The notes under the pieces were generated by a model that saw only the letters and a program-made list of their open reading frames with translations, made no database searches and had not been told where the DNA came from. DNA of 33,670 nt from Candidatus Aminicenantota bacterium. Its GTDB lineage: Bacteria > Acidobacteriota > Aminicenantia > Aminicenantales > Aminicenantaceae. Within the stretch, counting starts at the first letter, position 1. Every line of letters begins with the position of its first letter. This document shows, in pieces, positions 4,424 through 27,877 of this stretch. The translations under genes were made by a program, and so were the position numbers. The DNA lies in assembly GCA_003648765.1 (NCBI GenBank), contig QMPV01000013.1, positions 1-33,670 on the forward strand. Reading direction: 5' to 3'.

Positions 4424-5992
4424 TTATTTATTATCTATTCTTTTCTTTTTTAGAGCAAGAGCTGAGGGTGTGATAGCTAGACCACCGAGGGAAGTGCAGC
4501 GGAGTTGGGGAGGTAGCATTTTGCCTGAAGAGAGGGCAGCGTCAATGGTGTCATCGAGAGGAATAGGGTTGTCATAACCCCCAAGGATAAGATCAGCACA
4601 GACAAAAGCACTGGCGGCCGCCGCAGCATTGCGAGTGTGACAGGGAATTTCACAGATCCCTTGGACTAAGTCACAAACGGAGCCCATAGTGTTTTGCAAA
4701 GAAATAGCGGCTGCCTGGAGAGCTTGACTGGCGGTACCGCCGCAGGCATCCACCACCGCCGCCGCCGCCATAGCGCCAGCAGCACCGATTTCTACCTGAC
4801 AGCCAGCTACTTCGGCCGCAAATGTAGCCCGCTGGGCAACAATCAGACCGATCGCCCCGGCCGCAAAAAGGGCTAATAAAGTTTGGGTTTCGTCCAATTT
4901 TTTCTCTTCGCGTAAAGTAGTTATGACACCAGGAATAACTCCAGCTGAGCCACCGGTGGGAGCAGCACAAATAACTCCCAGACTATTTGCGTGGTGCATC
5001 ACGGCCATGGCTCGAGCTGCTGCCCTGGCATGAGGCCCCCCAAGAGCCACTGTTTGCTTGTCGATAGCTTGGATAATTTTATGGGCACTGGGTTCTAGCA
5101 GTTGGAGGTGAACCTTTTCGGGTTGTTGACCAGCACGAATGGCCGCCTCCATAACCCTCAGTCTTTTTTTCATTTCAGCCAAACATCTTTGCTGGTCAAG
5201 GCCTAACAAGGTGCTTTCATACTCTAGAGCAATGTTGCCTAAGGACAAATTTTTTTCTCTGGCCATTTTTTCTATATCTGCCCCTGAAGAAAAAAGGGGT
5301 CTTCCTTTTTGAGAAAAGACATGGGGGGAGGTAGTCCAAATTCTGGCCTCAGGGGAGATGGTTTTTATTTTTCTAAATAAACTCTGGTGAGGCTTCGATT
5401 TGAACCTGACGGAAATAAAGCTCTGAGAATCCGTGGTCTGTTCGTCCATTTTTTTACCCAGAGGAAGAAAAATGGATTTTAATTTCTTCAAGTCTTTTGA
5501 CTGACACTGGAGCAAGAGGAGATAATCTTTACCCTCAAAATCAATAGCCCAATTATTAAATTTGACGATTTGGATGGCACCGCCACCAATTGATTTAGCA
5601 ATAATAGTCAAGTCTGTTGTCTTGGGGGAGTGGAGGTGAATTTTGACACTGTTAGGATGGTCGGCTTCTGGAAAGGAGGCCACAAGGAACTCAAGGTGAA
5701 TTTTGTTCCGAGCCGCCAAAGTGAGGGCGGCAGGAAATCTTTCATCAGTCAGCGACCAGCCAAGCAGACCAGCTGCAAAGGCTAAATCTGCTCCCTGAGC
5801 TTGGAAAACTCGGGCATAAGATCCCTCCGGATGAAAAGTGAATTTTGCTTCTGCCGGGGGTTCTCCTAGGAGCTCCCGAACATGGCGGCCGATAAAATAA
5901 GAGCCGGCTGTGTGCGAGCTGGATTGCCCTCGCATGATTGGTCCTAAAACATCGTTAAAGATACTAATGAAGCTTGTCGGGGATGAGCTCAT
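4424..5992 (-). CDS. sdaA: L-serine ammonia-lyase, iron-sulfur dependent, fused beta-alpha form
   Basis: 522 residues. The enzyme deaminates L-serine to pyruvate and ammonia in the cytoplasm using an oxygen-labile [4Fe-4S] cluster. The N-terminal beta domain (about 1-215) has the SSSHTAG signature at residues 24-30. The alpha domain (about 245-515) has CAAPTGGSAGVIPG from C342, GCQVEIG with C398, and CDLVQGICEIPC with C440, C447 and C451. Gly stands where E. coli-type enzymes have a third cysteine in the GCQ region. The Bacillus-type alpha chain also lacks that cysteine and uses the later CDPVAGLVEVPC-type motif, so this is a fused type 1 enzyme, not a damaged one. GGGAG precedes the ATG. A promoter is proposed at 6079-6107. 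Confidence 0.93.
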   Translation of the reverse strand: MSSSPTSFISIFNDVLGPIMRGQSSSHTAGSYFIGRHVRELLGEPPAEAKFTFHPEGSYARVFQAQGADLAFAAGLLGWSLTDERFPAALTLAARNKIHLEFLVASFPEADHPNSVKIHLHSPKTTDLTIIAKSIGGGAIQIVKFNNWAIDFEGKDYLLLLQCQSKDLKKLKSIFLPLGKKMDEQTTDSQSFISVRFKSKPHQSLFRKIKTISPEARIWTTSPHVFSQKGRPLFSSGADIEKMAREKNLSLGNIALEYESTLLGLDQQRCLAEMKKRLRVMEAAIRAGQQPEKVHLQLLEPSAHKIIQAIDKQTVALGGPHARAAARAMAVMHHANSLGVICAAPTGGSAGVIPGVITTLREEKKLDETQTLLALFAAGAIGLIVAQRATFAAEVAGCQVEIGAAGAMAAAAVVDACGGTASQALQAAAISLQNTMGSVCDLVQGICEIPCHTRNAAAAASAFVCADLILGGYDNPIPLDDTIDAALSSGKMLPPQLRCTSLGGLAITPSALALKKKRIDNK

Positions 5993-6446: not shown

Positions 6447-7568
6447 TTATTTAAGACTTTCTTTTCCTTTGAAGGACCTATTTATAGCAAATTCCTTAAA
6501 GTCAACATCCCATTTTTCTTCGGCTATAAAATGGGCCAGATGTTTGCCGATTCCTGGACCAAACATAAAGCCGTGCCCACTCATCCCTGCGGCAATATAA
6601 AGGTTTTTAATCGGACTTTCATCAACTATGGGACTACCGTCGGGAGTCATCGTGTAACAGCCCGCCCATTGCCGGAGAATAGTGGCTTTTTCTAGAGGGG
6701 GAACTAAACGGACCATCCGTTGACCCATTTCCTGCAAGAATCCCAGAGAACTATCTATCCTAATTCCGGGCACGTTGGGAATAGGCGTATAACAGCCGAT
6801 AATATGGCCACTAATCAATTGATGGAAGTAACATCCATCGGGACGATAATCAACCAGCATAGGTTCGATAAATTTAGGCAGCCTTTCGGTGACGATAGCT
6901 TCATGTCTTTCAGGATAGAGAGGCAAATCAAGCCCCACTAATTTGGCTAATTCTCCAGTCCAGGGACCAGCTGAGAGCAGGACTTTTTTAGCTTCTAAGG
7001 TAGTGCCATCACCCAGAGTTAACCGGAAATTTCCATTGATTTTTATCTTTTTAACTGGATTATGTAAGAAAAAAGTTTGCTTTTTTTCTTGGAGTTTTTG
7101 GTGATAACCTTTCAACACAGCAAAAGGATAAGCTTGGCCGTCATCCGGACAATAAGCCGCTGCCAGCAGCCCTTCGGTATTCAGGTCGGGAACAATTTCC
7201 TGGGCCTCTTTAGGAGAGAGTAAGGTCACATTAACACCTTCAGCTTGCTGAATTTTGATGTTGTTCTGAAAAACTTCCACCATTTGAGGGGTATGAGCTA
7301 GTAAGAGATAGCCACCTTGATGAAATTCCACTGGAAAACCGAATTCTTCCTCCATTTGTTGAAAAAGGGTAAGGCTATCTTTCATCACCCGGATAGAGGT
7401 AGGCGTAGAGAACTGTTGGCGGATACCGCCGATACAACGCAGAGTTGAACCGGAACCAAGATAGTCTTTCTCAATGATAGCTAATTTGAGGCCTGCGGCA
7501 CTAAGATGATAGGCCGTGCTTAAGCCAATAATCCCGGCCCCCACTATGGCGACATCAAAGGTAAGCAT
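6447..7568 (-). CDS. FAD-dependent amino-acid/amine dehydrogenase, SoxB/HcnC-like (DAO family)
   Basis: 373 residues from the chosen ATG. The Rossmann FAD motif GAGIIG is at residues 10-15, followed by the acidic ribose-binding end IIEKD. The RCIGGIRQQFSTP stretch is characteristic of sarcosine-oxidase beta and related opine, D-hydroxyproline and HcnC subunits. A C-terminal GMSGHGFMFGPGIG loop completes the FAD site. These enzymes oxidise secondary or primary amines (sarcosine, glycine, D-amino acids, opines). The frame extends upstream to a GTG at 7619, but that start has no ribosome site, and ATG 7568 places the FAD motif at the usual position. It is divergent from the 2Fe-2S and NAD(P)/FAD genes at 7788-9474, which encode the normal partner subunits. 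The substrate cannot be read from sequence. Confidence 0.88.
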   Translation of the reverse strand: MLTFDVAIVGAGIIGLSTAYHLSAAGLKLAIIEKDYLGSGSTLRCIGGIRQQFSTPTSIRVMKDSLTLFQQMEEEFGFPVEFHQGGYLLLAHTPQMVEVFQNNIKIQQAEGVNVTLLSPKEAQEIVPDLNTEGLLAAAYCPDDGQAYPFAVLKGYHQKLQEKKQTFFLHNPVKKIKINGNFRLTLGDGTTLEAKKVLLSAGPWTGELAKLVGLDLPLYPERHEAIVTERLPKFIEPMLVDYRPDGCYFHQLISGHIIGCYTPIPNVPGIRIDSSLGFLQEMGQRMVRLVPPLEKATILRQWAGCYTMTPDGSPIVDESPIKNLYIAAGMSGHGFMFGPGIGKHLAHFIAEEKWDVDFKEFAINRSFKGKESLK

Positions 7569-7718
7569 GATAACTTTTCTCAGTGTAAAAAAGAGATTAT
7601 GAAGGGAATTTTTTAACACAGCCGGGGGCTGGTGTCAACTAGATCTGACTTCTCTTTCCCCTAAGCCACTCAGCTGGCCGTCAGTTTATCTAAGACTTGC
7701 CCCTTAAGCAGAGATTTC

Positions 7719-7787: not shown

Positions 7788-8069
7788 ATGGATAATCTAA
7801 GGATTCCTGCTATAAAGAGGAAAGAGAAAATCAATCTCTATGTCAACGGGAAGCCCATCACAGCCTATGCAGGGGAAACAGTTTTAGCTGCTCTGCTGGC
7901 GGCTGGGTATAAAATAATCAAGAAAAATCCCGTGAGTCAGGAACCACGGGGAGCTCTTTGCGGCATGGGGGTCTGTTTTGAATGTACGGTGACGATTAAT
8001 GGTGTGCCCAATATCCGAGCCTGCGTCACCGAAGTCCAAGAAGGGATGAGAGTAGAATTAGATGATTGA
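7788..8069 (+). CDS. Small [2Fe-2S] ferredoxin-like subunit (HcnA / SoxA N-terminal-like)
   Basis: 93 residues, one plant-type ferredoxin fold covering most of the protein. The cluster ligands are visible as C58-x4-C63-x2-C66 and a distal C79. Proteins of this size are the electron-transfer subunits of multi-subunit amine dehydrogenases (HcnA of hydrogen cyanide synthase, opine and D-hydroxyproline dehydrogenases, the N-terminal part of heterotetrameric sarcosine oxidase alpha). GGGAGA lies just before the ATG. The last 8 bases overlap the next gene, so the two are translationally coupled. It probably passes electrons between the FAD of the divergent DAO-type subunit and the partner encoded at 8062. 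Confidence 0.9.
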   Translation: MDNLRIPAIKRKEKINLYVNGKPITAYAGETVLAALLAAGYKIIKKNPVSQEPRGALCGMGVCFECTVTINGVPNIRACVTEVQEGMRVELDD

Positions 8070-9474
8070 AGACAAAAGCAAATATGAAGTGATTATTGTG
8101 GGCAGCGGCCTGGCCGGGCTGGTCGCAGCCAATATTCTAGCTGATTATAATTTAAAAATTCTTCTGGTTGACGAAAATATCCATCTGGGAGGTCAACTAT
8201 TACGAAAAATTCCTGAAGAATTAGGAGAGTATTCTGAACTTCATCTGGATAAAGTGAAAAGAGTGGGCTTTGAATTTGTTAATCAAGTCAAGCAGAAAAA
8301 ACTTACCTTGCTTAATAAAACGATCTTAATGGGTATTTACAATGACCGGGAAATTCTCCTGGAGTGGAACCGCCAGAAAGCCTTTTCCTTAAAATATGAT
8401 CTCCTTTTGCTGGCTACAGGGGCTAGAGAAAGATTTATTCCCTTTAAGGGCTGGACTTTACCCGGTGTCTACTCCACGGGATTGGTCCAGGTCTTAATGA
8501 AGAGCTCGGGTGTCTTACCTGCCCGGCGGATGCTTATCGGAGGGACGGGTCTTTTTCTCTTAGCCGCTGGCTATGAATATCTTAAAAATGGTGGCCGCCT
8601 GTTAGGGATTATGGAGCAGAGTCCTTGGTTGAATAAGATAAAATTTATGCCTCAGATCTTTCACCAATTTCCTAAATTCTGGGAAGGAGCTCGGTATCTT
8701 TCTTTAATTTACCGCTCCCGAGTACCGGTCAAATATAAAAGAAAGATTGTTGAAGCCAGGGGGGAAAAACAAGTTGAAGAAGTAGTAGTGGCTCGAGTGG
8801 ATGGCCGCGGCAGAGTAATCAAGGGCACAGAAAGGACATACTCGGTGGAAGCTTTAGCGGTAGGCTATGGCTTTGTGCCTAATATTGAAGCCGCCCAGCT
8901 GGCCGGCTGTGAGCTGGAGTATGCCCGCGAAAAAGGTGGCTGGACGGTAAAAGTAAATGACCGACTGGAAACAAGCGTGCCTGATATTCTGGCGGCGGGA
9001 GAGATTACTGGCATTGGCGGGGGGCAAAAGTCAATTTGTGAGGGACAATTGGCTGCTTATACTATTTTGGAGAAACTAGGCAAGGTGAAGGAAGTACCTT
9101 TTGCCCCACGTTTAAAGAAACTTCAGAGGGAAAGGAAACATCATTTGAGTTTTATGAAGTGTTTCAACTCTCTTTATCAGGTCGAGCCGGCCACCTTGCT
9201 CGACTTACCTGAAGAGACGATTATCTGCCGCTGTGAGAGCGTCACTTTAAAAGATTTAAAAGAAGCCCTGAAAATGGGTTGTCATAATCCCAACGCTCTT
9301 AAAGTGGCCACCCGTTGTGCCATGGGTAAATGCCAGGGCCGGACCTGCACGCCTATCATCTATGAATTGCTTCAGGCGATGTGTCAGAGAGAAGGAGGAG
9401 AAATAGGGCTATTTACGGTACGTCCACCTCTTAAGCCGATCTCCTTGCAGGCTCTTAATAAGTCAAGTAGTTAA
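8062..9474 (+). CDS. NAD(P)/FAD-dependent oxidoreductase subunit with C-terminal BFD-like Fe-S domain (HcnB/SoxA-like)
   Basis: 470 residues. The first nucleotide-binding motif GSGLAG is at residues 14-19. The pyridine-nucleotide-disulphide-oxidoreductase fold continues with LLLLATGARE near 115-123, a second glycine motif IGGTGLF near 159-165, and the late ILAAGEITGIGGG near 309-321 that closes the FAD site. A BFD-like [2Fe-2S] domain follows at about 385-435, with cysteines at 389, 391, 419, 424 and 429. This layout matches HcnB and the central part of SoxA. It overlaps the 2Fe-2S subunit gene by 8 bases. With that protein and the divergent DAO-type protein it forms a plausible three-subunit dehydrogenase. 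Confidence 0.9.
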   Translation: MIEDKSKYEVIIVGSGLAGLVAANILADYNLKILLVDENIHLGGQLLRKIPEELGEYSELHLDKVKRVGFEFVNQVKQKKLTLLNKTILMGIYNDREILLEWNRQKAFSLKYDLLLLATGARERFIPFKGWTLPGVYSTGLVQVLMKSSGVLPARRMLIGGTGLFLLAAGYEYLKNGGRLLGIMEQSPWLNKIKFMPQIFHQFPKFWEGARYLSLIYRSRVPVKYKRKIVEARGEKQVEEVVVARVDGRGRVIKGTERTYSVEALAVGYGFVPNIEAAQLAGCELEYAREKGGWTVKVNDRLETSVPDILAAGEITGIGGGQKSICEGQLAAYTILEKLGKVKEVPFAPRLKKLQRERKHHLSFMKCFNSLYQVEPATLLDLPEETIICRCESVTLKDLKEALKMGCHNPNALKVATRCAMGKCQGRTCTPIIYELLQAMCQREGGEIGLFTVRPPLKPISLQALNKSSS

Positions 9475-14188: not shown

Positions 14189-15187
14189 TTATTTCGTTTC
14201 GACTCGGTATCTTTTCATGACAGGATAAGGGATTTCTTCAGAGAAATATAGTCGTCCCTGGTCATCAATGGCCCTGAGTACACCTTCTACTTCCAGAATA
14301 GCTACAGATTTCCCTTTTTCAAAGATTTCTAAATGATTTTTTTTCTTAGTGGAAAATGATCTTAGTCCAGCATAAAGGCGACCTTGGTGTTCGACGACGT
14401 TTATTGTACACCAGAACAAGCTGAGTTGACGTCTATCGCCGGCAGTTCTGGCTTGTACTTTTAAGGGGAAAAAGAGTTTACTCTGTCCTTTTAAAGTCTG
14501 TTGAAGTTGACCGTTCTCATAGACCTGAATTTCATAGGCATAGGGATTAGCCAGAAAAATTTTACCGCTGGCAGAACAGTCGAAGTGAAGCGGTTGTTTA
14601 ATTAAAGGCACATCTTTATAGGCTGTTACCCGAGAAGGAGGGGCAAATGGTTCTCCAAAGCTTTCTAGGTGGTGACCTTGGAGGTCATAGAGGTGAACCA
14701 ATTTTTCTTCTTTCAAACCGAGAATAGCTATCCGATTTTCATCCAGAGCTCCGATCCCGGTGGGACTGAAGTCCAATTTGAAATGGCCTAGAATCTGGCC
14801 GTTTTTGTCGAGAGAAACGATTTTGCTCGCTCCTCGGTCAAGTAGAGTAATTTTTCCATCCGGGTGGACAGCTACTCCCGAGAGAGCGGCAATTTCAGTC
14901 GGGCCTTGACCTTTCTTTATCGGGAAACTTTTCAAAAAATGCCCATCTTGAGTGAAGATCTGAATGCGGTAATTAGGCCAGTCAAGAAGATAAATATTGG
15001 CTTCGTTGTCGAGAGAGACCGCCGCTACGCTGCCGAAAATTAAATTCTCGTCTCTTTGATCAACACCAATTTGTAAATCTTCAACGAGTTGAAATTCCTT
15101 GGGTTGAGGTCGGCAAGCTGAACTAAAAATAAAAGAAAAGGTTAGACAAAAGAGAGTAAACAGGACTGTCCTTGAGGCTGATTTCAT
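14189..15187 (-). CDS. 6-bladed beta-propeller lipoprotein (NHL-like)
   Basis: 332 residues. The signal ends with lipobox-like FSSAC (Cys25), so it is predicted to be a lipoprotein. The mature part repeats NHL-type blades with the pattern of an aromatic/hydrophobic strand, a glycine turn and YxIQIF or IxLLD, for example LDWPNYRIQIFTQDGHFLKSF near 65-85 and LLDRGASKIVSLDKNGQILG near 115-135. Such propellers bind partners or ligands at the cell surface and have no predictable enzymatic activity. GGGAGG precedes the ATG by about 6 bases. A second, related propeller is encoded at 26542-27741. It converges on the DUF5916 gene and lies upstream of the hyu operon in the opposite sense of transcription order, so it is probably a separate unit. 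Confidence 0.85.
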   Translation of the reverse strand: MKSASRTVLFTLFCLTFSFIFSSACRPQPKEFQLVEDLQIGVDQRDENLIFGSVAAVSLDNEANIYLLDWPNYRIQIFTQDGHFLKSFPIKKGQGPTEIAALSGVAVHPDGKITLLDRGASKIVSLDKNGQILGHFKLDFSPTGIGALDENRIAILGLKEEKLVHLYDLQGHHLESFGEPFAPPSRVTAYKDVPLIKQPLHFDCSASGKIFLANPYAYEIQVYENGQLQQTLKGQSKLFFPLKVQARTAGDRRQLSLFWCTINVVEHQGRLYAGLRSFSTKKKNHLEIFEKGKSVAILEVEGVLRAIDDQGRLYFSEEIPYPVMKRYRVETK

Positions 15188-15677: not shown

Positions 15678-17774
15678 TTATCGCTCCAGGATTAGATTGC
15701 CGAGAGAATCAACCCATAGATGCCAGGCTGGGCCAACAAAAGTAGTTGAATTGTTTTCTTGAATAAGCGCCGGTCCTTTAATTTCATGTCCGGCGTGGAG
15801 AAGGTGACGCGGCCAGACCGGGCATTGAATCAACCGGAGACCGGTTTGAGGGGTAGTTTTTAACCAGATTTCACGGCGAGAGGCTGTTTGTTCTTTAAGG
15901 GGCGAAGAGGCTTTTTCTAAAGATGGTAGTTGAGGTTTCGGCACTTTGATTATGGCTTTTAATCTGAGATTAACTAATTCCACCGTTTCTTCAGGTTCAC
16001 AATGGCCATAGACTTGCTGGTGGAGTTGATGAAAGGAGGATAGGAGAGAGTTCATCAGCCCTGAAGTGAATTTTTTCCCCGAAAAAGGCACATTTAGTTC
16101 ATAATTTTGCCCTTGATAGCGGAGATCGGCTGAAGGTAAAAGAAGTGTGTTCTTTTGGTGGTCGGGGCTGTGTTGAATCCAGGCTTGGGCTTCTTGGAGC
16201 AGAATATCCAAAATAGATTGAATGGTGCTAAGATTTTTGGTTTCTAAAGATAGGATTCTGGTGCGGACAAAATCCATGGTGATATCCGAAAGAAGAAGGC
16301 CCATGGCTGAAAATAAACCGGGGAAAGGGGGAATAATGATTTTTTTAATGCCCATTTCTTCGGCGAGCTGACAGGCGTGAAGAGGGCCGGCTCCCCCATA
16401 AGCCAAAAGAGTAAATTCCCGAGGGTCATAGCCCTGAGAAATGGAGACAAGGCGTAGGATTCGCAACATGCTGGCGTTGGCGATGGTCAAAATGCCCTGG
16501 GCCGCCTCTCGAACATCAAGCCCAAGGGGACGAGCTATTTTTTTCTGGATAGCCTGACGCGCGGGAACGAGGTGGAGAGATTTCCGTCCGCCCAGCAAAT
16601 CAGCGGGATGAAGATAGCCGAGCAGAAGATAGGCATCGGTCAAGGTTGGTTCCTGGCCGCCCTGACCATAGGCGGCTGGTCCGGGATAAGCCCCGGCACT
16701 GTGAGGGCCGACTTGCAGATGGCCTCCAGGGTCAATCCAAGCAATGCTGCCCGAACCGGCCCCGCACTCAGCTACATCAACCATGGGGAACCGCACCGGG
16801 TAACCGCCTTGATTTTGGCCACCACTGTGAATAGGTCCACCTACTTGATAGTCCACGGTGTATTGTAGCTGGCCGTTAAGGATAAGGCCAGTCTTAGCTG
16901 TTGTTCCTCCCAGGTCAAAGGCGATCACCCGCGGGAGGTGAAGAACTTTAGCCCAATGGGCCACCGCCACTAAACCAGCCGCTGGACCAGACTCGATGAG
17001 TTGGTGAGGATGGCGGGCTGCTTCTCTCGCTGGAAGCATCCCTCCGCCAGAATGCATTAAGAAAACCTCTGAATGAGAAGAGCCCAAACGAGCCAAATTA
17101 TTCAGTAAAGCCTTCAGATAGTTAACCAAAGGAGGAGCCACAGCTGCCGCCACTACGGTAGTACTGGTGCGTTCATATTCGCGAAACTCCGGTGAGACCT
17201 GACTGGAAAGAAAAATGAATTCTTCAGGGAAAAACTCCCGAGCCAGTTGGCTGAGCCGCTTTTCGTGCTGGGGATTAAGAAAGGAGAAGAGAAGCGAGAT
17301 GGCTAAGGCTTCAACTCCCTGACGATGGAGATCTTGTAAAGCTTTCTTGGCGACTGACAAATCAATTTTCTGGATAATTTGACCTTGGGGGCCAATTCTT
17401 TCGGGAATTTCGCGGATCAATTCCCGAGGGACAAGAGGAGGTAGTTTTTCTTGCTGGAGGTTGTAAAGTTCAGGCCTAGACTGGCGTCCGATTTCTAGTA
17501 GATCGCGAAATCCGGCCGTCACCAGGAGGCCTGTTTTGGCGGTTTGCTGCTGAAGAAGCGCGTTGGTCACCAGAGTTGTTCCGTGAACAATAGTTTTCAG
17601 CTCAAATGGCTGCCTTTGAATTGCCTTGAGAATCTCCTCTAATCCTTGAAGAAAGGCTTTTTCTGGGTGGTCAGGGGTAGTGGGGATTTTGAGGGGCCAA
17701 AGCTTATTTTGTTCTTCGTCAAAAAGAAGCACATCGGTAAAAGTGCCCCCCGTATCAATGGCTGCTCTCAGCAT
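15678..17774 (-). CDS. hyuA: Hydantoinase/oxoprolinase family protein, HyuA subunit
   Basis: 698 residues, normal for HyuA (about 650-720). It is an ASKHA-type ATPase: DTGGTFTD at residues 7-14 (phosphate 1), HGTT at 64-67, SGPAAG at 262-267 (adenosine/phosphate 2 region) and DLGGTTAKTG at 287-296. The later VGPHSAGAYPGPAAYGQGG stretch is a family hallmark. HyuA works with HyuB to open a cyclic amide (5-oxoproline, hydantoins) with ATP; related pairs are acetone or acetophenone carboxylases. The ATG overlaps the hyuB stop by 7 bases, and it is the last gene of the operon. The substrate is not readable, and the asnB-like first gene makes a novel lactam or hydantoin plausible. Confidence 0.92.
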   Translation of the reverse strand: MLRAAIDTGGTFTDVLLFDEEQNKLWPLKIPTTPDHPEKAFLQGLEEILKAIQRQPFELKTIVHGTTLVTNALLQQQTAKTGLLVTAGFRDLLEIGRQSRPELYNLQQEKLPPLVPRELIREIPERIGPQGQIIQKIDLSVAKKALQDLHRQGVEALAISLLFSFLNPQHEKRLSQLAREFFPEEFIFLSSQVSPEFREYERTSTTVVAAAVAPPLVNYLKALLNNLARLGSSHSEVFLMHSGGGMLPAREAARHPHQLIESGPAAGLVAVAHWAKVLHLPRVIAFDLGGTTAKTGLILNGQLQYTVDYQVGGPIHSGGQNQGGYPVRFPMVDVAECGAGSGSIAWIDPGGHLQVGPHSAGAYPGPAAYGQGGQEPTLTDAYLLLGYLHPADLLGGRKSLHLVPARQAIQKKIARPLGLDVREAAQGILTIANASMLRILRLVSISQGYDPREFTLLAYGGAGPLHACQLAEEMGIKKIIIPPFPGLFSAMGLLLSDITMDFVRTRILSLETKNLSTIQSILDILLQEAQAWIQHSPDHQKNTLLLPSADLRYQGQNYELNVPFSGKKFTSGLMNSLLSSFHQLHQQVYGHCEPEETVELVNLRLKAIIKVPKPQLPSLEKASSPLKEQTASRREIWLKTTPQTGLRLIQCPVWPRHLLHAGHEIKGPALIQENNSTTFVGPAWHLWVDSLGNLILER

Positions 17775-19531
17775 TTTTCTTGCCCCACTTTTTTCCGGAG
17801 AGATCTGAGTCGCCTGGTGGCGGTATAATTAACTTTTTGGCCCTTAATTTCCACTCCATAGAGTTGGCGGGCTTGAGAGGCGCTTATTTTTCCCGCTCTC
17901 AAGTCTTGAAGCACCTTTTCCGGCGGCCTTTCCAGAGGCGACCCATATCCACCTCCTCCAGCTGTCCGGGCGATAAGGATCTCTCCCGGCTGGAGTAAGA
18001 GACCATTGATTTTAGAAGGGATTTTTTTCCTTTTTTTCTGGGCCGATTGGACAAGAAATTGACCCGGTTGTCCAGGAAGACCGCCTTTTAACCCCCAAGG
18101 ACGGAAACGGTGGCGGTCGGCGTGAGCCGAAAAAAGCACCGGAGTCAGAACCATAATTTCCTTGGCTATGCCTAGCCCCCCTCGGTATTTGCCGGCGCCA
18201 CCAGAGTTCTTTACCAGACCATAACGAAGTACCCGCAAAGGATATTCCGTTTCCAAGGACTCTACAGGTAGATTGGAAGTGTTGGTGATATGGACCTGAA
18301 CCCCATCAAGGCCATCGCGTTGGGAGCGAGCCCCCAGGCCTCCTCCCAGAGCCTCAATGTAGACAAACTCCTGACCAGAGAGTTTTTGGGTGCCGCCAAA
18401 GATCAGAGCAGTGGTGGCGCCATTAGAAGCCGCGATAACTTTCTCCGGGAGGGCTTCACTGAAAGCTCCCAGAAGCACATCAACTACCCGCTGGCAGGTG
18501 TCGGTCCGACCGCCGACGGCAGCTGGTTCTTGAGCGTTGACCAGAGTCCCTGGGGGAGCTAAGATTCTCAGAGGGCGTTGAAAGCCGGCATTCATGGGGA
18601 TATCTGCAGCGAGTAAGGCTTTTATGGTGTAAAAAACAGAAGCTTCCAAGGCCACCTTAACCATATTGACCCCACCTTCGGCTTGGCAGGCGGTACCGGT
18701 AAAATCAAAAAATAAAGAAGGCTGGGGGGCATGTTCGACTCGAATCTTCACCTGGATTTTTAATGGCTTTGGGGAGCAACCGTCATCGTCCAGATAGTCG
18801 TGGTACTTATATTCCCCGGGAGGAATAGCTAGAATTTGTTGACGGAGCCATATTTCACTGTAGTTAAACAAGGCTTGAAGATTCTGGTTGATAGTTTCCC
18901 AACCATAAGAGAGGACAAGTTCTTCTAACCTTTTCGCTCCCCGTTGAAGGGAGGCCAGTTGCGCTCGCAGGTCACCTTCTCTTTCGCGGCGGTGGCGTAA
19001 ATTAGTCAAAATGGCTTCAGCTATTTCCTTTTGGAATTTCCCTTGGCGATAGAGAAACAGAGGGGGGATACGGAAACCTTCTTGGTAGATCTCTGTAGCA
19101 GCTCCGGCGGTGCCGCCTCCGGGGAAAGCTCCGCCAATGTCCGCCCAATGAGCAATATTGGCCACAAAACCCACCAGTTGGTGAGAGGCAAAAACTGGCT
19201 GGACCAGAGTGACGTCAGGCAGATGCGAGCCCCCGCCTTGAAATGGGTCATTGGTGATAATGACATCCCCAGGTGTAAGAGATGCTAAGGGAAATTTCTC
19301 GCAGATTTTTTCCATTAAACCCAGCATAGAGCCGAGATGGATAGGGATATGTTCAGCCAAGGCCACTAGTTCTCCCTGGGAAGAGAAAAGGGCACAGGAA
19401 CAGTCGCGGCGTTCTTTGATGTTGGTGGAATAGGCTGTTCGGATTAAGGTGACACCCATTTCCTCGGCAATACCCTGCAAGGCATGCCGCAGGACTTCGG
19501 TAGTAATGGGGTCTACGTGGGAGTAGCTCAT
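17768..19531 (-). CDS. hyuB: Hydantoinase B/oxoprolinase family protein, HyuB subunit
   Basis: 587 residues, slightly longer than the common 520-580. The N terminus DPITTEVLRHALQGIAEEMG with IKERRDCSCALF is typical. Conserved NDPFQGGGSHLPDVTL near 93-108, TGTACQAEGGVN in the middle and GGRTDTCQR near 345 mark the HyuB fold. It is the catalytic partner of HyuA. The ATG overlaps the preceding asnB-like stop as ATGA, and its own stop overlaps the hyuA start, so all three proteins are translationally coupled. The ribosome site is weak, as expected for a coupled start. The C terminus has a glycine-rich AGGGGYGSPLERPPEKV motif common in the family. Confidence 0.92.
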   Translation of the reverse strand: MSYSHVDPITTEVLRHALQGIAEEMGVTLIRTAYSTNIKERRDCSCALFSSQGELVALAEHIPIHLGSMLGLMEKICEKFPLASLTPGDVIITNDPFQGGGSHLPDVTLVQPVFASHQLVGFVANIAHWADIGGAFPGGGTAGAATEIYQEGFRIPPLFLYRQGKFQKEIAEAILTNLRHRREREGDLRAQLASLQRGAKRLEELVLSYGWETINQNLQALFNYSEIWLRQQILAIPPGEYKYHDYLDDDGCSPKPLKIQVKIRVEHAPQPSLFFDFTGTACQAEGGVNMVKVALEASVFYTIKALLAADIPMNAGFQRPLRILAPPGTLVNAQEPAAVGGRTDTCQRVVDVLLGAFSEALPEKVIAASNGATTALIFGGTQKLSGQEFVYIEALGGGLGARSQRDGLDGVQVHITNTSNLPVESLETEYPLRVLRYGLVKNSGGAGKYRGGLGIAKEIMVLTPVLFSAHADRHRFRPWGLKGGLPGQPGQFLVQSAQKKRKKIPSKINGLLLQPGEILIARTAGGGGYGSPLERPPEKVLQDLRAGKISASQARQLYGVEIKGQKVNYTATRRLRSLRKKVGQEKC

Positions 19532-20997
19532 ATATGTTTGGTTCGACCTATTTCTTCCAGAGGCACCTTCTGGCCAAAAAAGCTTTTAAAGATTTTATAG
19601 TAGAGTAATTCTTCTTTGGAGCGAAGATGAAAATTTTCTTTTATGATCCGGGAGTTAACAAATTCTTCATCACTTATTTTTTCTTCAGCGTAATCAGCTA
19701 TCATCTCCCAGACACCCGCGCCCTGCCAGAATTTTTCTTTCCGCCGGTTAACTACTTTTGCCGGCAAGTATTCAGCCACAGCTTGGCGCAGAGGCCATTT
19801 CTCAATCTTGTCTTGGTCATAAATCTTCCAGCGGGCAGGAATAGCCAAGGCCAAGCGGACTACTTCCGGATCAAGGAAGGGAGTTACCACCCCATGTCCA
19901 TGAGCTATGGCTGAGCGGTCTACCCGTTGAAGAGCTGTATTGTGGAGAGCAGCTATAGCTTCTTGAATACAGATGGTCAGTTCTACATCACTCTGACAGT
20001 TTTTCTGGTAATCATAACCGGCGAAAAGTTCATCTCCCCCTTCACCAGAGAGGATGAAGGCAACGTGCTCAGCCGCCATCTCGGCGACCAGGTAATTACC
20101 AACAGCACTGCGGATAAGCGGAGCATCAAAAGATTCAAGATGATAAATGACTTTATCCAACACCGCCAGGGTTTCCTGGAGAGTATAAAGACGTTCATGA
20201 TGGATGGAGCCAATATGGTCGGCTACCAACCGAGCATGTTCGAGATCAGGGGCACCTTTAACTCCGGCGGAAAAGGTATGGAGGTGGGCAATATGATTTT
20301 TGGCTAGGGCCGCCATGGCACTGGAGTCAATACCACCGCTTAACCACACTCCAATGGCTGTTTCCGAGGCAGGAATGGCCCTCTGGACGGCTTTGTCTAG
20401 GCAAGAATAGAGTTGACGAGCGCTGTCTTGAGGGGAAGCAAAGTTAATATCAGCCGGAAGATATGGTTTGAAGGGGAATAGACCCGAATTGGCGATAAAA
20501 AAGTGACCCGGAGGGAATTCACGGACTTCATCCACCACATCAACCAGAGCTTTTATTTCCGAGGCGAAACAAAAGTGGCTGTGGTGAAAGCCATAATAAA
20601 GAGGGCGGACTCCCAGTCGATCGCGAGCCAGAACAAGGGTATCAGAGGTAACCATGGCTAGAGCGTAGTCACCTTCCAGGTGGTCAAATAATTCTCCACC
20701 TGATTGGGCCCAGGAAGCCAGGAGGGCTTCTTTAAGGTTATTCGCATTTTCCCCTTCAGAGCCGGGCAACTTTTCGGGATGAGTGAGGCGACCGTCCATG
20801 ATAATATTTGTTTCCCGGGATGAATTATCTAAAGGGCCAGGCTCTTCAGGCAGGTTGACTAGCTTGACCGTTCCCAAAGTAGCTTGAGAGCCTGACCAGA
20901 TATCACCTAGTTGAGAGTTTTTATGGGTCATTTTTTGGAGCATCTTTTTGACCACCTCTTGACCATTGGCCGAGAGAATACCTGCAATCCGTGCCAT
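19528..20997 (-). CDS. Asparagine-synthetase-like ATP-dependent amide ligase lacking the glutaminase cysteine
   Basis: 489 residues, shorter than typical AsnB (about 550-630). The N-terminal half keeps the class II glutaminase fold outline (DRLGVRPLYYG at 126-136), but the catalytic start MCGIAG is MARIAG, so Cys1 is absent. The glutamine-binding NGEIYN region reads MDGRLTH near 68-74. The synthetase half is intact: PP-loop SGGIDSS at 220-226, SGEGGDELFAGY at 318-329 and the RRKEKFWQGAG loop with the probable catalytic lysine near 420. AsnB homologues without Cys1 include beta-lactam synthetase and carbapenam synthetase, which adenylate a carboxylate and form an amide without glutamine. The start is secure: GGGAGGT lies just upstream. 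It is first in the operon with hyuB and hyuA. Confidence 0.9.
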   Translation of the reverse strand: MARIAGILSANGQEVVKKMLQKMTHKNSQLGDIWSGSQATLGTVKLVNLPEEPGPLDNSSRETNIIMDGRLTHPEKLPGSEGENANNLKEALLASWAQSGGELFDHLEGDYALAMVTSDTLVLARDRLGVRPLYYGFHHSHFCFASEIKALVDVVDEVREFPPGHFFIANSGLFPFKPYLPADINFASPQDSARQLYSCLDKAVQRAIPASETAIGVWLSGGIDSSAMAALAKNHIAHLHTFSAGVKGAPDLEHARLVADHIGSIHHERLYTLQETLAVLDKVIYHLESFDAPLIRSAVGNYLVAEMAAEHVAFILSGEGGDELFAGYDYQKNCQSDVELTICIQEAIAALHNTALQRVDRSAIAHGHGVVTPFLDPEVVRLALAIPARWKIYDQDKIEKWPLRQAVAEYLPAKVVNRRKEKFWQGAGVWEMIADYAEEKISDEEFVNSRIIKENFHLRSKEELLYYKIFKSFFGQKVPLEEIGRTKHI

Positions 20998-21119: not shown

Positions 21120-21148
21120 AGTCTATCATACTAAAATTTAGGTGTCAA
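21120..21148 (-). promoter_or_regulatory. Possible promoter of the asnB-hyuB-hyuA operon
   Basis: On the minus strand, a perfect TTGACA (21148-21143) is followed after 17 bases by TAGACT (21125-21120). The -35 box touches the outer direct repeat of the IS-like remnant. Confidence 0.3.
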
Positions 21149-22103: not shown

Positions 22104-23570
22104 TTACTCGAATTCGATAAAGTCTTCGGTCCGCAACCACCAGGGAGGACGCCGATAGGAGGCGTTTTTACCTCCGAGGGAAGGAATGTAATAGTCTTGC
22201 GGGTTGGGTCCAGGATAGAAGATTTTTTGCAGTTGGGTTAAGGCGTCATGAGACAGGCCGGTGGGGTCATTGGAACTGAGATTAAGAGCGGCTCGATGGA
22301 GCCAATTAGCTTTGCGGGTATAGGGGCAGACGGCGATACAAAGGCGACAGCCCATGTTGCCGAGATTAGAATTCCAGAAATTGTAGCATTTAGCGGCGTG
22401 CAGTTGCCATTTGCGATAGCCCCGGACAACTACTTTATCTCCTTTGGTGATGGCTCCGCTAGGGCACTGTTCGGCACAAATTTTGCAAGTTTTACAAAAA
22501 GATTCCACCCCGAATTTGATGGGCTTGTCCGGCTTCAAAGGAATATTGGTCGTCACCACCGCGGCTCTAAAATTTGGTCCGAGCTCAGGAGTAATTACAA
22601 TGGAACTGCGGGCCTGTTCGCCTAGTCCGGCGTCGATCATAATCGGGGGCACCATTAAATCATAGGAATAACCAGGGGTGTGCGGCCGGGCGGCGTAACC
22701 CAGATATTTAATGAAAGCCGCCAGGCGATAGGCGATAATCCGAGAAATAGAATAAGCGTCTTCAGAGGTGCCGTAGTTGGGATTAGCGTACATCGGGTCC
22801 CAGGACATAGGTGTGCCAACCACGATAGCGTATTCCCAGTGTGAAGGGATTTCTAGAGGCTGGTTGGGGTCCAGACCTCGGCCTGGAATGGGGTATTGAA
22901 ACACCCAATCGGGGTTGAGACGAGCGATCCCGACCAGCGTGGCTCCTAGTTCGTGAGCGATTTTTTTGATAAGACGCGAGGTTTTGGCCGGGCTTTTAAG
23001 CTTGTAAGGCCGGCGCAGTTTTTCTTGGCCACGACCCCAACCTACGTAGGGAAAATCGGCTTTTTCTGGAGGTTCAGTTATTCGAGGTGGAACCACCGCT
23101 GCCATAGCCTCCGACCAGGCTTCAGCCAGCAGAAAAGTGCGGCCATATTTTTCCTGGTCAGCCATTAGTTTTGGTCTCAGGACCTTGATATTCTCCAGAT
23201 CAAGTTCTAAATCTTCGGGATGTTCCTGATAATATTTTTGAAGATGCTCTGGTAAGCTCTCAATTCTCGGGTCTTGCCGCCAATAACGCACAAAAGTCGG
23301 CAAGCGAGAAAAAACTATCTCGCTGCGCGGATCTACGCGGCGGGTCGGCCCGACTTTTTCATAAGGAGGCTCATTCACCGTAAAGCGGTGACGAGGGAAA
23401 GTTTGGTCACCTCCTTCAAAGGTTTTCCAGCCGGTGTAACTGGCCGGGTCCCGGCCAGCTTCATAACCAAAGAAGCCCAGTCCACTGAGTCCCAAGACGG
23501 CACTGGTGGCTCCAGTGGCTTTCAGAAAACTCCGGCGGGAAAACTTTGTTTTGGGCTTATTCTGCTCCAT
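22104..23570 (-). CDS. rdhA: Reductive dehalogenase catalytic subunit (RdhA), Tat-exported
   Basis: 488 residues, normal for RdhA. A Tat signal SRRSFLK is at residues 11-17, followed by a hydrophobic stretch to about 36. The corrinoid-binding nitroreductase-like domain covers about 195-345, with the family block PPIMIDAGLGEQAR (308-321) and ITPELGPNFR (326-335). Two [4Fe-4S] clusters follow: C359-x2-C362-x2-C365-x3-C369-P, and C395 with C408-x2-C411-x3-C415-P. These enzymes use a cobamide to remove halogens from organic compounds as a respiratory electron sink. GGAGG precedes the ATG, and rdhB follows 12 bases after the stop. No regulator, cobamide or second rdh gene is in the window. The substrate is unknown. 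Epoxyqueuosine reductase is excluded by the Tat signal, the block order and the anchor gene. Confidence 0.92.
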   Translation of the reverse strand: MEQNKPKTKFSRRSFLKATGATSAVLGLSGLGFFGYEAGRDPASYTGWKTFEGGDQTFPRHRFTVNEPPYEKVGPTRRVDPRSEIVFSRLPTFVRYWRQDPRIESLPEHLQKYYQEHPEDLELDLENIKVLRPKLMADQEKYGRTFLLAEAWSEAMAAVVPPRITEPPEKADFPYVGWGRGQEKLRRPYKLKSPAKTSRLIKKIAHELGATLVGIARLNPDWVFQYPIPGRGLDPNQPLEIPSHWEYAIVVGTPMSWDPMYANPNYGTSEDAYSISRIIAYRLAAFIKYLGYAARPHTPGYSYDLMVPPIMIDAGLGEQARSSIVITPELGPNFRAAVVTTNIPLKPDKPIKFGVESFCKTCKICAEQCPSGAITKGDKVVVRGYRKWQLHAAKCYNFWNSNLGNMGCRLCIAVCPYTRKANWLHRAALNLSSNDPTGLSHDALTQLQKIFYPGPNPQDYYIPSLGGKNASYRRPPWWLRTEDFIEFE

Positions 23571-26541: not shown

Positions 26542-27741
26542 CTAATTTTTCTTGGGCCAAGCGGTGACTCGATATTTAACAATAATCGGTAAACCCTCAG
26601 AGTCTTTTTCAATCAACCAGATGAATTTTCCCTGCCAGCAGAGGCCACTTCTGGTGAGCAAGGAGCCTTTAATCCCGGAAACTTCGATCCGCTGAATAAA
26701 ATTTCCCTGGGAGTCGAAGACATCCAAAGTCCGTTCCATTTTTTCTTTATCTTTTAAATAGGGCTGAATCAGGATATTGCCTTCCGAGTCGACCAATAGT
26801 CCCCTATAAGCTGGTTTGTAGCGGGGAAAGGTGGTGTTTTTAACAATAAAATCAGGGGCTCCTTTCTTGGTTGTTCCATCTGAACTGGCAAAAGTCATCC
26901 TGGCAAAATGGTTTTTCTGGTCTTCTTTGGTTACTTTGACCGGCTGGTAAGGACGGGTGATTTTTTTGATTTCTTCTCCCTGGAGAGTATAAAGGCTGAA
27001 TTCATAATTTTCCGAGTAGCCAATAACAATTTTCCCCTGGGGAAGAACATCCCAGTGAACCCGGGGAGAGAAAGGAAGAGGAACATTGGCCAGCCCCCCC
27101 TCACCGAAGCGAATGAATTTATTCTCCCAGACAGAATGAGAATAGATGACTTTTTTGACTTCTAACTCCGGGGAAAGCAATTCGAGAAAAACTTCCTGGG
27201 GTTTCTGCGGGTCGGCGAAGTATGTTTTTTTGGTTTCCACAATGAATCGCCCATCGGGTAAAGCCTTAACTCGCCAGGGACGACCTTTTAATTGGGTCAG
27301 GTTGGCTGAAGTTAGGTATTGGCCTGTCAGGCTGACGGTGGTTAACCGCCGATTCCTCATGTCCCAGACAAGGATCCGGTCAGAGGCGATAGCCAAACTG
27401 AACGGGGCATTGAATTCTCCCGGTCCTTGTCCTGGACGACCAATGACCTGGAGAAACTTCCCCTTGAGGTCAAATTTTTTGATGTCGCTCTCCCGGAAAT
27501 CAAGAAGGTAAATATTACCGGCAGAGTCGAGACTGAGATCTATGGGGGAAGCCAGCACCACCTCAGTGGGTAGATTTGATTGGTCAATCACCAGTTCTTG
27601 GACCAAGTTGATTTTGCCCTGCCGGTAAATCTCCACCAGCGTGTCAGCTGCTTTTTTCTGGCCGTTCATAAAGGAAGAAAAGAGAAAAGGCAGGCCGACC
27701 AGGAGAAGGATAAAGGTAGAAAAAGCAGGTTTGAATTTCAT
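26542..27741 (-). CDS. Exported 6-bladed beta-propeller protein
   Basis: 399 residues from the chosen ATG. A hydrophobic signal peptide covers about residues 5-24 with no lipobox cysteine, so it is predicted to be periplasmic or secreted. NHL-like blades are clear in the first half: IDLSLDSAGNIYLLDFRESD, then IKKFDLKGKFLQVIGRPG, QGPGEFNAPFSLAIA and DRILVWDMRNRRLTTVSL. The second half is less regular. The frame opens at a TTG at 27753, but that codon is inside the ribosome site; GGAGG then sits 6-7 bases before ATG 27741. It resembles the lipoprotein at 14189-15187 in fold. No enzymatic role can be assigned. It shares the array-bracketed block with the serine hydrolase. Confidence 0.87.
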   Translation of the reverse strand: MKFKPAFSTFILLLVGLPFLFSSFMNGQKKAADTLVEIYRQGKINLVQELVIDQSNLPTEVVLASPIDLSLDSAGNIYLLDFRESDIKKFDLKGKFLQVIGRPGQGPGEFNAPFSLAIASDRILVWDMRNRRLTTVSLTGQYLTSANLTQLKGRPWRVKALPDGRFIVETKKTYFADPQKPQEVFLELLSPELEVKKVIYSHSVWENKFIRFGEGGLANVPLPFSPRVHWDVLPQGKIVIGYSENYEFSLYTLQGEEIKKITRPYQPVKVTKEDQKNHFARMTFASSDGTTKKGAPDFIVKNTTFPRYKPAYRGLLVDSEGNILIQPYLKDKEKMERTLDVFDSQGNFIQRIEVSGIKGSLLTRSGLCWQGKFIWLIEKDSEGLPIIVKYRVTAWPKKN

Positions 27742-27877
27742 GCCGCCCTCCAAGAACGCTCAACTTTATCTTCTTTAAATATAAAGATAATGGCGGCTAA
27801 TTTAAAGGCGAAATTTCTACTTCAAGCCCAGGATTTGTTTTTCTTCTGGGTGAAGCATGATGATTAGCGAAAAGCAT

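Follow-up and report, generated by a model that had tools for sequence, protein, structure and literature searches.

An operon joining an AsnB-like protein without a glutaminase site to a predicted HyuAB cyclic-amide hydrolase in Candidatus Aminicenantota

A 33,670-nucleotide stretch of contig QMPV01000013.1 from a Candidatus Aminicenantota bacterium (GenBank assembly GCA_003648765.1; class Aminicenantia), hereafter the window, carries an operon in which a gene for a homologue of asparagine synthetase B (AsnB) is joined to hyuB and hyuA, which encode the two subunits of a predicted ATP-dependent cyclic-amide hydrolase. The AsnB-like protein has lost its glutaminase site and kept its synthetase half, with an acceptor pocket that differs from that of asparagine synthetases. 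These are known families in a new combination. We tentatively favor the explanation that the AsnB-like protein uses free ammonia to amidate an amino dicarboxylate other than aspartate, and that HyuAB opens a related cyclic amide.

The operon and its conservation

According to the open reading frame coordinates in the window, all three genes lie on the minus strand; the asnB-like gene comes first, followed by hyuB and hyuA, with short overlaps between successive genes (Table 1). The product of the asnB-like gene matched the Pfam family Asn_synthase and remnants of GATase_7/6 (class II glutamine amidotransferase), that of hyuB matched Hydantoinase_B, and that of hyuA matched Hydant_A_N, Hydantoinase_A, and Hydant_A_C. 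The sequence GGGAGG, which resembles a ribosome-binding site, is found immediately 5' of the asnB-like ATG. The promoter-like site upstream of the trio is weak evidence, because the region contained 10 such sites compared with a mean of 6.7 in shuffled sequence. Coordinates and strand confirmed the overlapping three-gene operon described in a first-pass annotation made from the sequence alone.

The trio was found in the same order and with short overlaps in all three genomes of the genus, and all three AsnB-like proteins (100, 76, and 65% identity) lacked the first cysteine (Cys1; hereafter Cys-less). In a sample of 142 genomes of the class (genomes are given below as G numbers and loci as L numbers), 24 encoded a protein that matched the AsnB-like protein with an E-value of 1e-30 or better. 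One of these, G093, contained only a different Cys-less type (MSAITG-like), leaving 23 AsnB carriers. HyuB orthologues (at least 55% identity) were present in nine of the 142 genomes, all of which carry AsnB, and they formed one clade (support 100/100) that excluded 11 further HyuB proteins found in the class. The co-occurrence of HyuB and AsnB was significant when genome relatedness is ignored (hypergeometric p = 2.6e-8, 24 carriers). The hyuAB genes adjoin asnB in seven of the nine genomes, forming an operon in three and a convergent arrangement in four (G157, G162, G175, and G159). In the convergent genomes asnB and hyuA are 32-68 bases apart, and hyuB lies next to hyuA in three of them and on another contig in G159. 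The AsnB proteins of the operon and convergent types fell into two separate subclades of the AsnB tree. We conclude that asnB-like, hyuB, and hyuA form a real operon, beyond chance. Whether the association is conserved elsewhere had been posed as a check in the first-pass annotation, and the gene order does recur across the genus, with adjacency in the other orientation in four more genomes. In G393, which belongs to another class, a HyuB with 51% identity had no AsnB beside it.

Table 1 Features of the operon region, in positions of the window
Feature	Position	Strand	Length	Description
asnB-like gene	19528..20997	minus	489 aa	Glutaminase-dead, predicted AMP-forming amide synthetase, asparagine synthetase B family
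hyuB	17768..19531	minus	587 aa	PF02538; predicted metal-binding subunit, ATP-dependent cyclic-amide hydrolase
hyuA	15678..17774	minus	698 aa	PF05378/PF01968/PF19278; predicted ATP-binding subunit of HyuAB hydrolase
asnB-like/hyuB overlap (stop/start)	19528..19531	minus	4 nt
hyuB/hyuA overlap (end/start)	17768..17774	minus	7 nt
Promoter-like TTGACA-17-TAGACT, upstream of the trio	21120..21148	minus		Consensus match only

Active sites of the AsnB-like protein and HyuAB

The N-terminus of the window protein reads MARIAG, with Ala at the position of Cys1. In addition, the NGEIYN motif is replaced by DGRLTH, the Arg of RLSI by Lys, and the Asp of SDxE is lost. The glutamine pocket of human asparagine synthetase (ASNS) has been reported to comprise Arg-48, Asn-74, Gly-75, Glu-76, and Asp-96 (PMC6748925), and the aligned positions in the window protein are K, D, G, R, and L. 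Cys1 is replaced by Ala, Gly, or Ser in the three genus members and by one of the same three residues in all 20 class members aligned. This alignment covers 20 of the 23 AsnB carriers; the other three sequences are interrupted by contig ends, and two of them are still readable at the N-terminus (MSGIAG/VSGIAG). About 45 residues containing the glutamine pocket are deleted in 14 of the 20 Cys-less class members.

The two halves of the protein have been conserved to different degrees. The ratio of identity in the glutaminase half to that in the synthetase half was 0.78, 0.78, and 0.82 in the Cys-less groups, and 0.97 in six relatives that carry Cys1. For the asnB-like gene, the rate of nonsynonymous substitution (dN) was 0.208 over the glutaminase half compared with 0.118 over the synthetase half; the synonymous rate (dS) was saturated, hence dN/dS could not be computed. 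Both the ATP-binding PP-loop (SGGIDSS) and the GEGGDE loop are retained in the window protein, as is the C-terminal Lys. Alignment therefore bears out the first-pass description of an AsnB homologue with MARIAG at its start, no NGEIYN, and complete ATP and synthetase loops: the glutaminase site has been destroyed, while the synthetase half, the better conserved of the two, is intact.

An AlphaFold2 model of the AsnB-like protein, built from a 28-row alignment, had a predicted local distance difference test score (pLDDT) of 91.2 and a predicted template modeling score (pTM) of 0.91. Its top fold match was E. coli AsnB (1ct9; Z 43.3, 2.5 Å, 471 residues aligned), followed by human ASNS (Z 39.5-40.2; 39.5 for 6gq3), β-lactam synthetase (BLS, 34.7-35.6), TsnB9 (32.4), and carbapenam synthetase (CarA, 28.2-29.8). 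Like the E. coli and human enzymes, the window protein has the PP-loop, the GEG-DE loop, the C-terminal Lys, and equivalents of human E364 and D367, namely E319 and D322, which were kept in all 26 Cys-less and Cys-bearing rows of a joint alignment. Unlike them, it has neither Cys1 nor the glutamine pocket, and several residues around the acceptor are exchanged. The Thr-Thr of ETYDVTTIR is P293-L294 in the window protein and Leu, Pro, His, or Tyr followed by Leu across the class. The position of human D400, reported to belong to a residue cluster of the aspartate pocket (PMC6748925), is Ala in 20/20 Cys-less rows (A355 in the window) and Asn in 6/6 Cys-bearing rows. The Ser that follows KxxF is Trp (Trp424) in 20/20 Cys-less rows. 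These exchanges make the acceptor pocket different from those of asparagine synthetases. Among NCBIfam models, PRK09431 (asparagine synthase B) was the best match with 373 bits (cut-off 499), and TIGR01536 scored 240 bits (cut-off 267). The window's genome contains two further asnB genes, both with Cys1.

BLS (1jgt) and CarA (1q15) belong to the same superfamily and have no working glutaminase, and the window protein shares with them K420, the equivalent of Lys443. The catalytic pair of BLS and CarA is a Tyr-Glu dyad. In the joint alignment, however, the dyad positions (Y348/E382 in BLS and Y345/E380 in CarA) are occupied by E319 and Q357 in the window protein. A pairwise alignment instead placed BLS E382 at L356, which is likewise non-acidic.

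In a tree of 49 sequences, the 20 Cys-less class rows grouped together (support 84/24) and joined a sister type (100/99), and Cys-bearing relatives whose genes follow an opine-dehydrogenase-like (ODH) gene and a mutase gene formed a further group (98/92). The window protein grouped apart from asparagine synthetases of the E. coli/human type. BLS and CarA, for which only fragments of ~220-235 residues were included, were placed far off (100/100) on long branches. In approximately unbiased (AU) tests, a single clade of the Cys-less proteins (plus the sister type) and the Cys-bearing ODH type was not rejected (p = 0.365), nor was a clade of the Cys-less proteins with BLS and CarA, with the same fragments and long branches (p = 0.237). 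A clade of the Cys-less proteins and the ODH type without the sister type was rejected (p = 0.0135). Plasmid searches returned 384 records for the AsnB-like protein and 916 for HyuB, every one of them below 60% identity, and a scan of genome contigs gave a single weak locus, which matched part of the glutaminase half at 31%.

The second Cys-less AsnB type (MSAITG) was found at L042:8577-10043 (minus strand) in G093 and at L107:9907-11373 (plus strand) in G158. Its gene sits among MTTB-type methyltransferase and corrinoid-like genes in both genomes (families scanned in G093), and a CN_hydrolase gene adjoins it in G093.

For HyuA and HyuB, the nearest solved relative is N-methylhydantoinase (7hk5), followed by caprolactamase CapAB (6yra), and the alignments extend over nearly the full length. 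Mutation has been reported to show that D11 and D295 of CapA and D41, H99, D102, and H124 of CapB are essential or nearly so (PMC8453981). In alignments read by eye, both ATP-site residues of CapA are conserved in HyuA and all four metal ligands of CapB in HyuB, whereas CapB Tyr136 is not conserved. The NCBIfam caprolactamase models gave 520 and 315 bits and did not reach the cut-off of 1000. With its catalytic residues intact, HyuAB is predicted to be a competent ATP-dependent cyclic-amide hydrolase.

Genes that accompany the synthetase

Outside the HyuAB carriers, other genes recur beside asnB. An ODH-like gene and a gene with a B12 domain come immediately before the asnB-like gene in G187, G191, G216, and G236 (PF02317, opine dehydrogenase, and PF02310, N-terminal B12-binding, were scanned in G191; the other ODH genes were called by similarity). 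The contigs of G188, G252, and G254 end at a mutase gene located ahead of asnB, and in total the mutase-asnB order was found in 7/23 AsnB carriers of the class. The same ODH-mutase-asnB order was found with Cys-bearing relatives in other classes (G091, G081, G018, and G045); in Cys-bearing G058 the mutase alone precedes asnB, at a contig end, and in G100 the contig begins at asnB. The mutases of the Cys-bearing relatives are 51-57% identical to that of G191. The Cys-bearing proteins have the same LESFDAPLVRS pocket and the same gene neighbors as the Cys-less proteins of the sister families, but differ in having Cys1 and NGE(I/V)YN intact, and Asn355 and Ser424 where the Cys-less proteins have Ala355 and Trp424. 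No HyuAB was seen beside the Cys-bearing cassettes at the loci examined. In G091 and G081 (L037 and L038), the Cys-bearing cassette is followed by MarC-family and DUF389 genes (family scan made for G081 alone).

For the G191 mutase, the model (pLDDT 89.4, pTM 0.75) showed a one-chain fusion of a cobalamin domain, which matched 1y80 (Z 16.0), and a barrel resembling glutamate mutase subunit E (Z 32.8 for 1cb7 and 32.7 for 6h9e, 374-378 residues aligned). At the sequence level, a profile search of the mutase returned cobalamin domains and a weak match to lysine aminomutase but no glutamate mutase, and a plasmid search with it gave no match.

In the family of the window's genome, the dehydrogenase and mutase genes lie away from asnB, mostly with TldD and TldE. 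Mutase type 1 was present in 19 of the 142 genomes and a distant type 2 (29-36% identity) in 12, and no genome contained both. The two types, marked by the motifs NCVHVAG (type 1) and DAHTLG (type 2), were mutually exclusive across these 31 genomes (loci L139-L149 and L180-L188). In G152, type 2 belongs to the same ODH-TldD-TldE cluster, and in G154 and G163 it is found at the same locus. In the window's genome, ODH-TldD-TldE is on contig 184 and mutase type 2 on contig 122; TldD and TldE were assigned here from their resemblance to the pair scanned in G157. AsnB (23 genomes) and mutase (31 genomes) were shared by 19/142 genomes (p = 4.6e-12, ignoring relatedness). A replacement of the mutase by HyuAB, with a Fisher p of 0.036, had counted mutase type 1 only and was superseded: most genomes in that test do have a mutase, because type 2 sits in the same ODH-TldD-TldE cluster.

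A D-glutamate-cyclase-like gene (PF14336) was present in three of the 142 genomes, all of them AsnB carriers (p = 0.0043, ignoring relatedness), and in 0/9 HyuB carriers. It ends 17-19 bases upstream of asnB in G153 and G167; in G216 it is carried on a separate contig and has no gene of the module near it. The mouse PF14336 protein has been reported to convert D-glutamate to 5-oxo-D-proline (PMC5339696). Since HyuAB and PF14336 each occur beside asnB, two unrelated kinds of cyclic-amide gene accompany the same Cys-less synthetase.

Candidate functions and other genes of the window

Under the reading that we tentatively favor, E319 and D322 would hold an amino dicarboxylate, ATP would adenylate its side-chain carboxylate, and ammonia from solution (or a small amine) would attack the adenylate, releasing the amide and AMP. 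The acceptor would be an amino acid other than aspartate, most likely an amino dicarboxylate of the size of glutamate. The ODH-like enzyme and the glutamate-mutase-fold cobalamin mutase may be the ancestral partners of the AsnB-like protein, and the substrate would then most likely be their product. HyuAB would have been recruited later and would use ATP to open the cyclic amide, a ring of five or six members, formed by this compound or a related one, making the open acid available for amidation. We infer the nitrogen donor, the acceptor, and the direction of the HyuAB step, the acceptor from gene neighbors only. Ammonia is suggested as donor because the AsnB-type Glu319 is kept and the Cys-bearing relatives share the pocket, and canonical AsnB-type enzymes have been reported to accept free ammonia (PMC13060819). 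Ammonia- or amine-dependent amidation linked to HyuAB had been one option in the first-pass annotation and is still the best-fitting candidate function.

Several observations weigh against this reading. The asnB and hyuAB genes are on different contigs in G158 and G180 (2/9), 14 of the 23 AsnB carriers have no orthologous HyuB, 12 members of the family carry the mutase but lack AsnB, and none of the co-occurrence p values takes genome relatedness into account. The mutase resembles glutamate mutase by fold only, with 15% identity, and lysine 5,6-aminomutase (Z 30.4) and ornithine 4,5-aminomutase (Z 27.5) come near its best score of 32.8. Furthermore, D-glutamate cyclase is reported to close a ring, the opposite of what is expected of HyuAB.

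Among the alternatives, we give most weight to a repair function, although we consider it unlikely. Here the acyl-adenylate of the AsnB-like protein, without channeled ammonia, would partly self-cyclize to a lactam of the 5-oxoproline type, which HyuAB would recover. Activated γ-glutamyl groups cyclize readily, HyuAB is an ATP-dependent ring opener by its intact residues, and its presence in 9/23 AsnB carriers is that of an accessory; yet the D-glutamate-cyclase-like gene that takes this position elsewhere would be of no use for lactam recovery, and HyuAB might equally supply substrate. Next in probability, and also unlikely, is the pairing of a ring maker with a ring opener, the leading idea of the first-pass annotation, in which a lactam synthetase like BLS or CarA uses the substrate's own amine and HyuAB opens the ring. 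Cys1 is lost as in BLS and CarA, and both HyuAB and the D-glutamate-cyclase-like neighbor concern cyclic amides. However, Glu319 and Gln357 stand in place of the dyad, the model is closer to AsnB (Z 43.3) than to BLS (35.6) or CarA (29.8), and the Cys-bearing relatives with the same LESFDAPLVRS pocket retain an intact glutaminase site and therefore presumably make a primary amide. In the tree with BLS, CarA, and AsnB that had been proposed as a check, the Cys-less proteins did not group with BLS and CarA; the AU test, based on fragments, did not reject such kinship, and for this reason we keep a lactam synthetase as a rival. As a main reading drawn from the loss of Cys1 alone, it was dropped for want of the dyad.

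We regard as improbable that the protein is a plain ammonia-dependent asparagine synthetase and the adjoining HyuAB a separate enzyme of amino-acid salvage. PRK09431 is its best NCBIfam match and the E. coli and human enzymes are its nearest solved structures, but it scores below both curated cut-offs, the Thr-Thr and D400 of the aspartate pocket are replaced in all members, the genome also carries two asnB genes whose products have Cys1, and the tree sets it outside the ordinary asparagine synthetases, an outcome opposite to the one by which the first-pass annotation would have been overturned. Such a role would also leave the links to mutase, dehydrogenase, and HyuAB unexplained. The least probable alternative is a fortuitous link between neighbors inherited together within one family. 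All nine HyuB carriers belong to one family and two of the nine are unlinked; nevertheless, the genes occur in two arrangements with AsnB proteins from two separate subclades, and within the family AsnB is present in 9/9 HyuB carriers compared with 15/38 genomes overall.

The first-pass suggestion of an uncharacterized pathway is upheld insofar as the gene association is conserved and we found no published description of it, nor any paper on the ODH-cobalamin mutase-AsnB cassette, in the open literature searched. It seems doubtful, although conceivable, that an ODH-like enzyme, a one-chain cobalamin mutase folded like glutamate mutase, and a synthetase of the AsnB type together make an amidated, rearranged amino acid (e.g., one like 3-methylasparagine) in an undescribed pathway, and that the synthetase of this lineage lost glutamine use and gained a partner that opens cyclic amides.

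The products of AsnB-type synthetases include amides, lactams, and nitriles, and the proteins described here form a natural series that bears on how one or another outcome is reached. The series runs from an intact glutaminase in the Cys-bearing proteins, through loss of Cys1 with the domain mostly kept, to the deletion of ~45 residues, with the synthetase half and the odd pocket persisting. The gene company (mutase, ODH-like, HyuAB, and D-glutamate-cyclase-like) narrows the candidate substrates to a small, testable set.

Elsewhere in the window, a gene at 22104-23570 encodes a reductive-dehalogenase-like protein with a twin-arginine translocation (TAT) signal (TIGR02486, 187 bits, cut-off 160); it is absent in G149 between asnB and a beta-lactamase-like gene. 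Two 6-bladed-propeller genes (14189-15187 and 26542-27753) are missing at the equivalent places in G149. An L-serine ammonia-lyase at 4424-5992 combines beta-like and alpha parts in a single 522-aa chain, and a divergent pair at 6447-7619 and 8062-9474 encodes a DAO-family oxidase and a sarcosine-oxidase-alpha-like flavoprotein with a BFD-like [2Fe-2S] domain.

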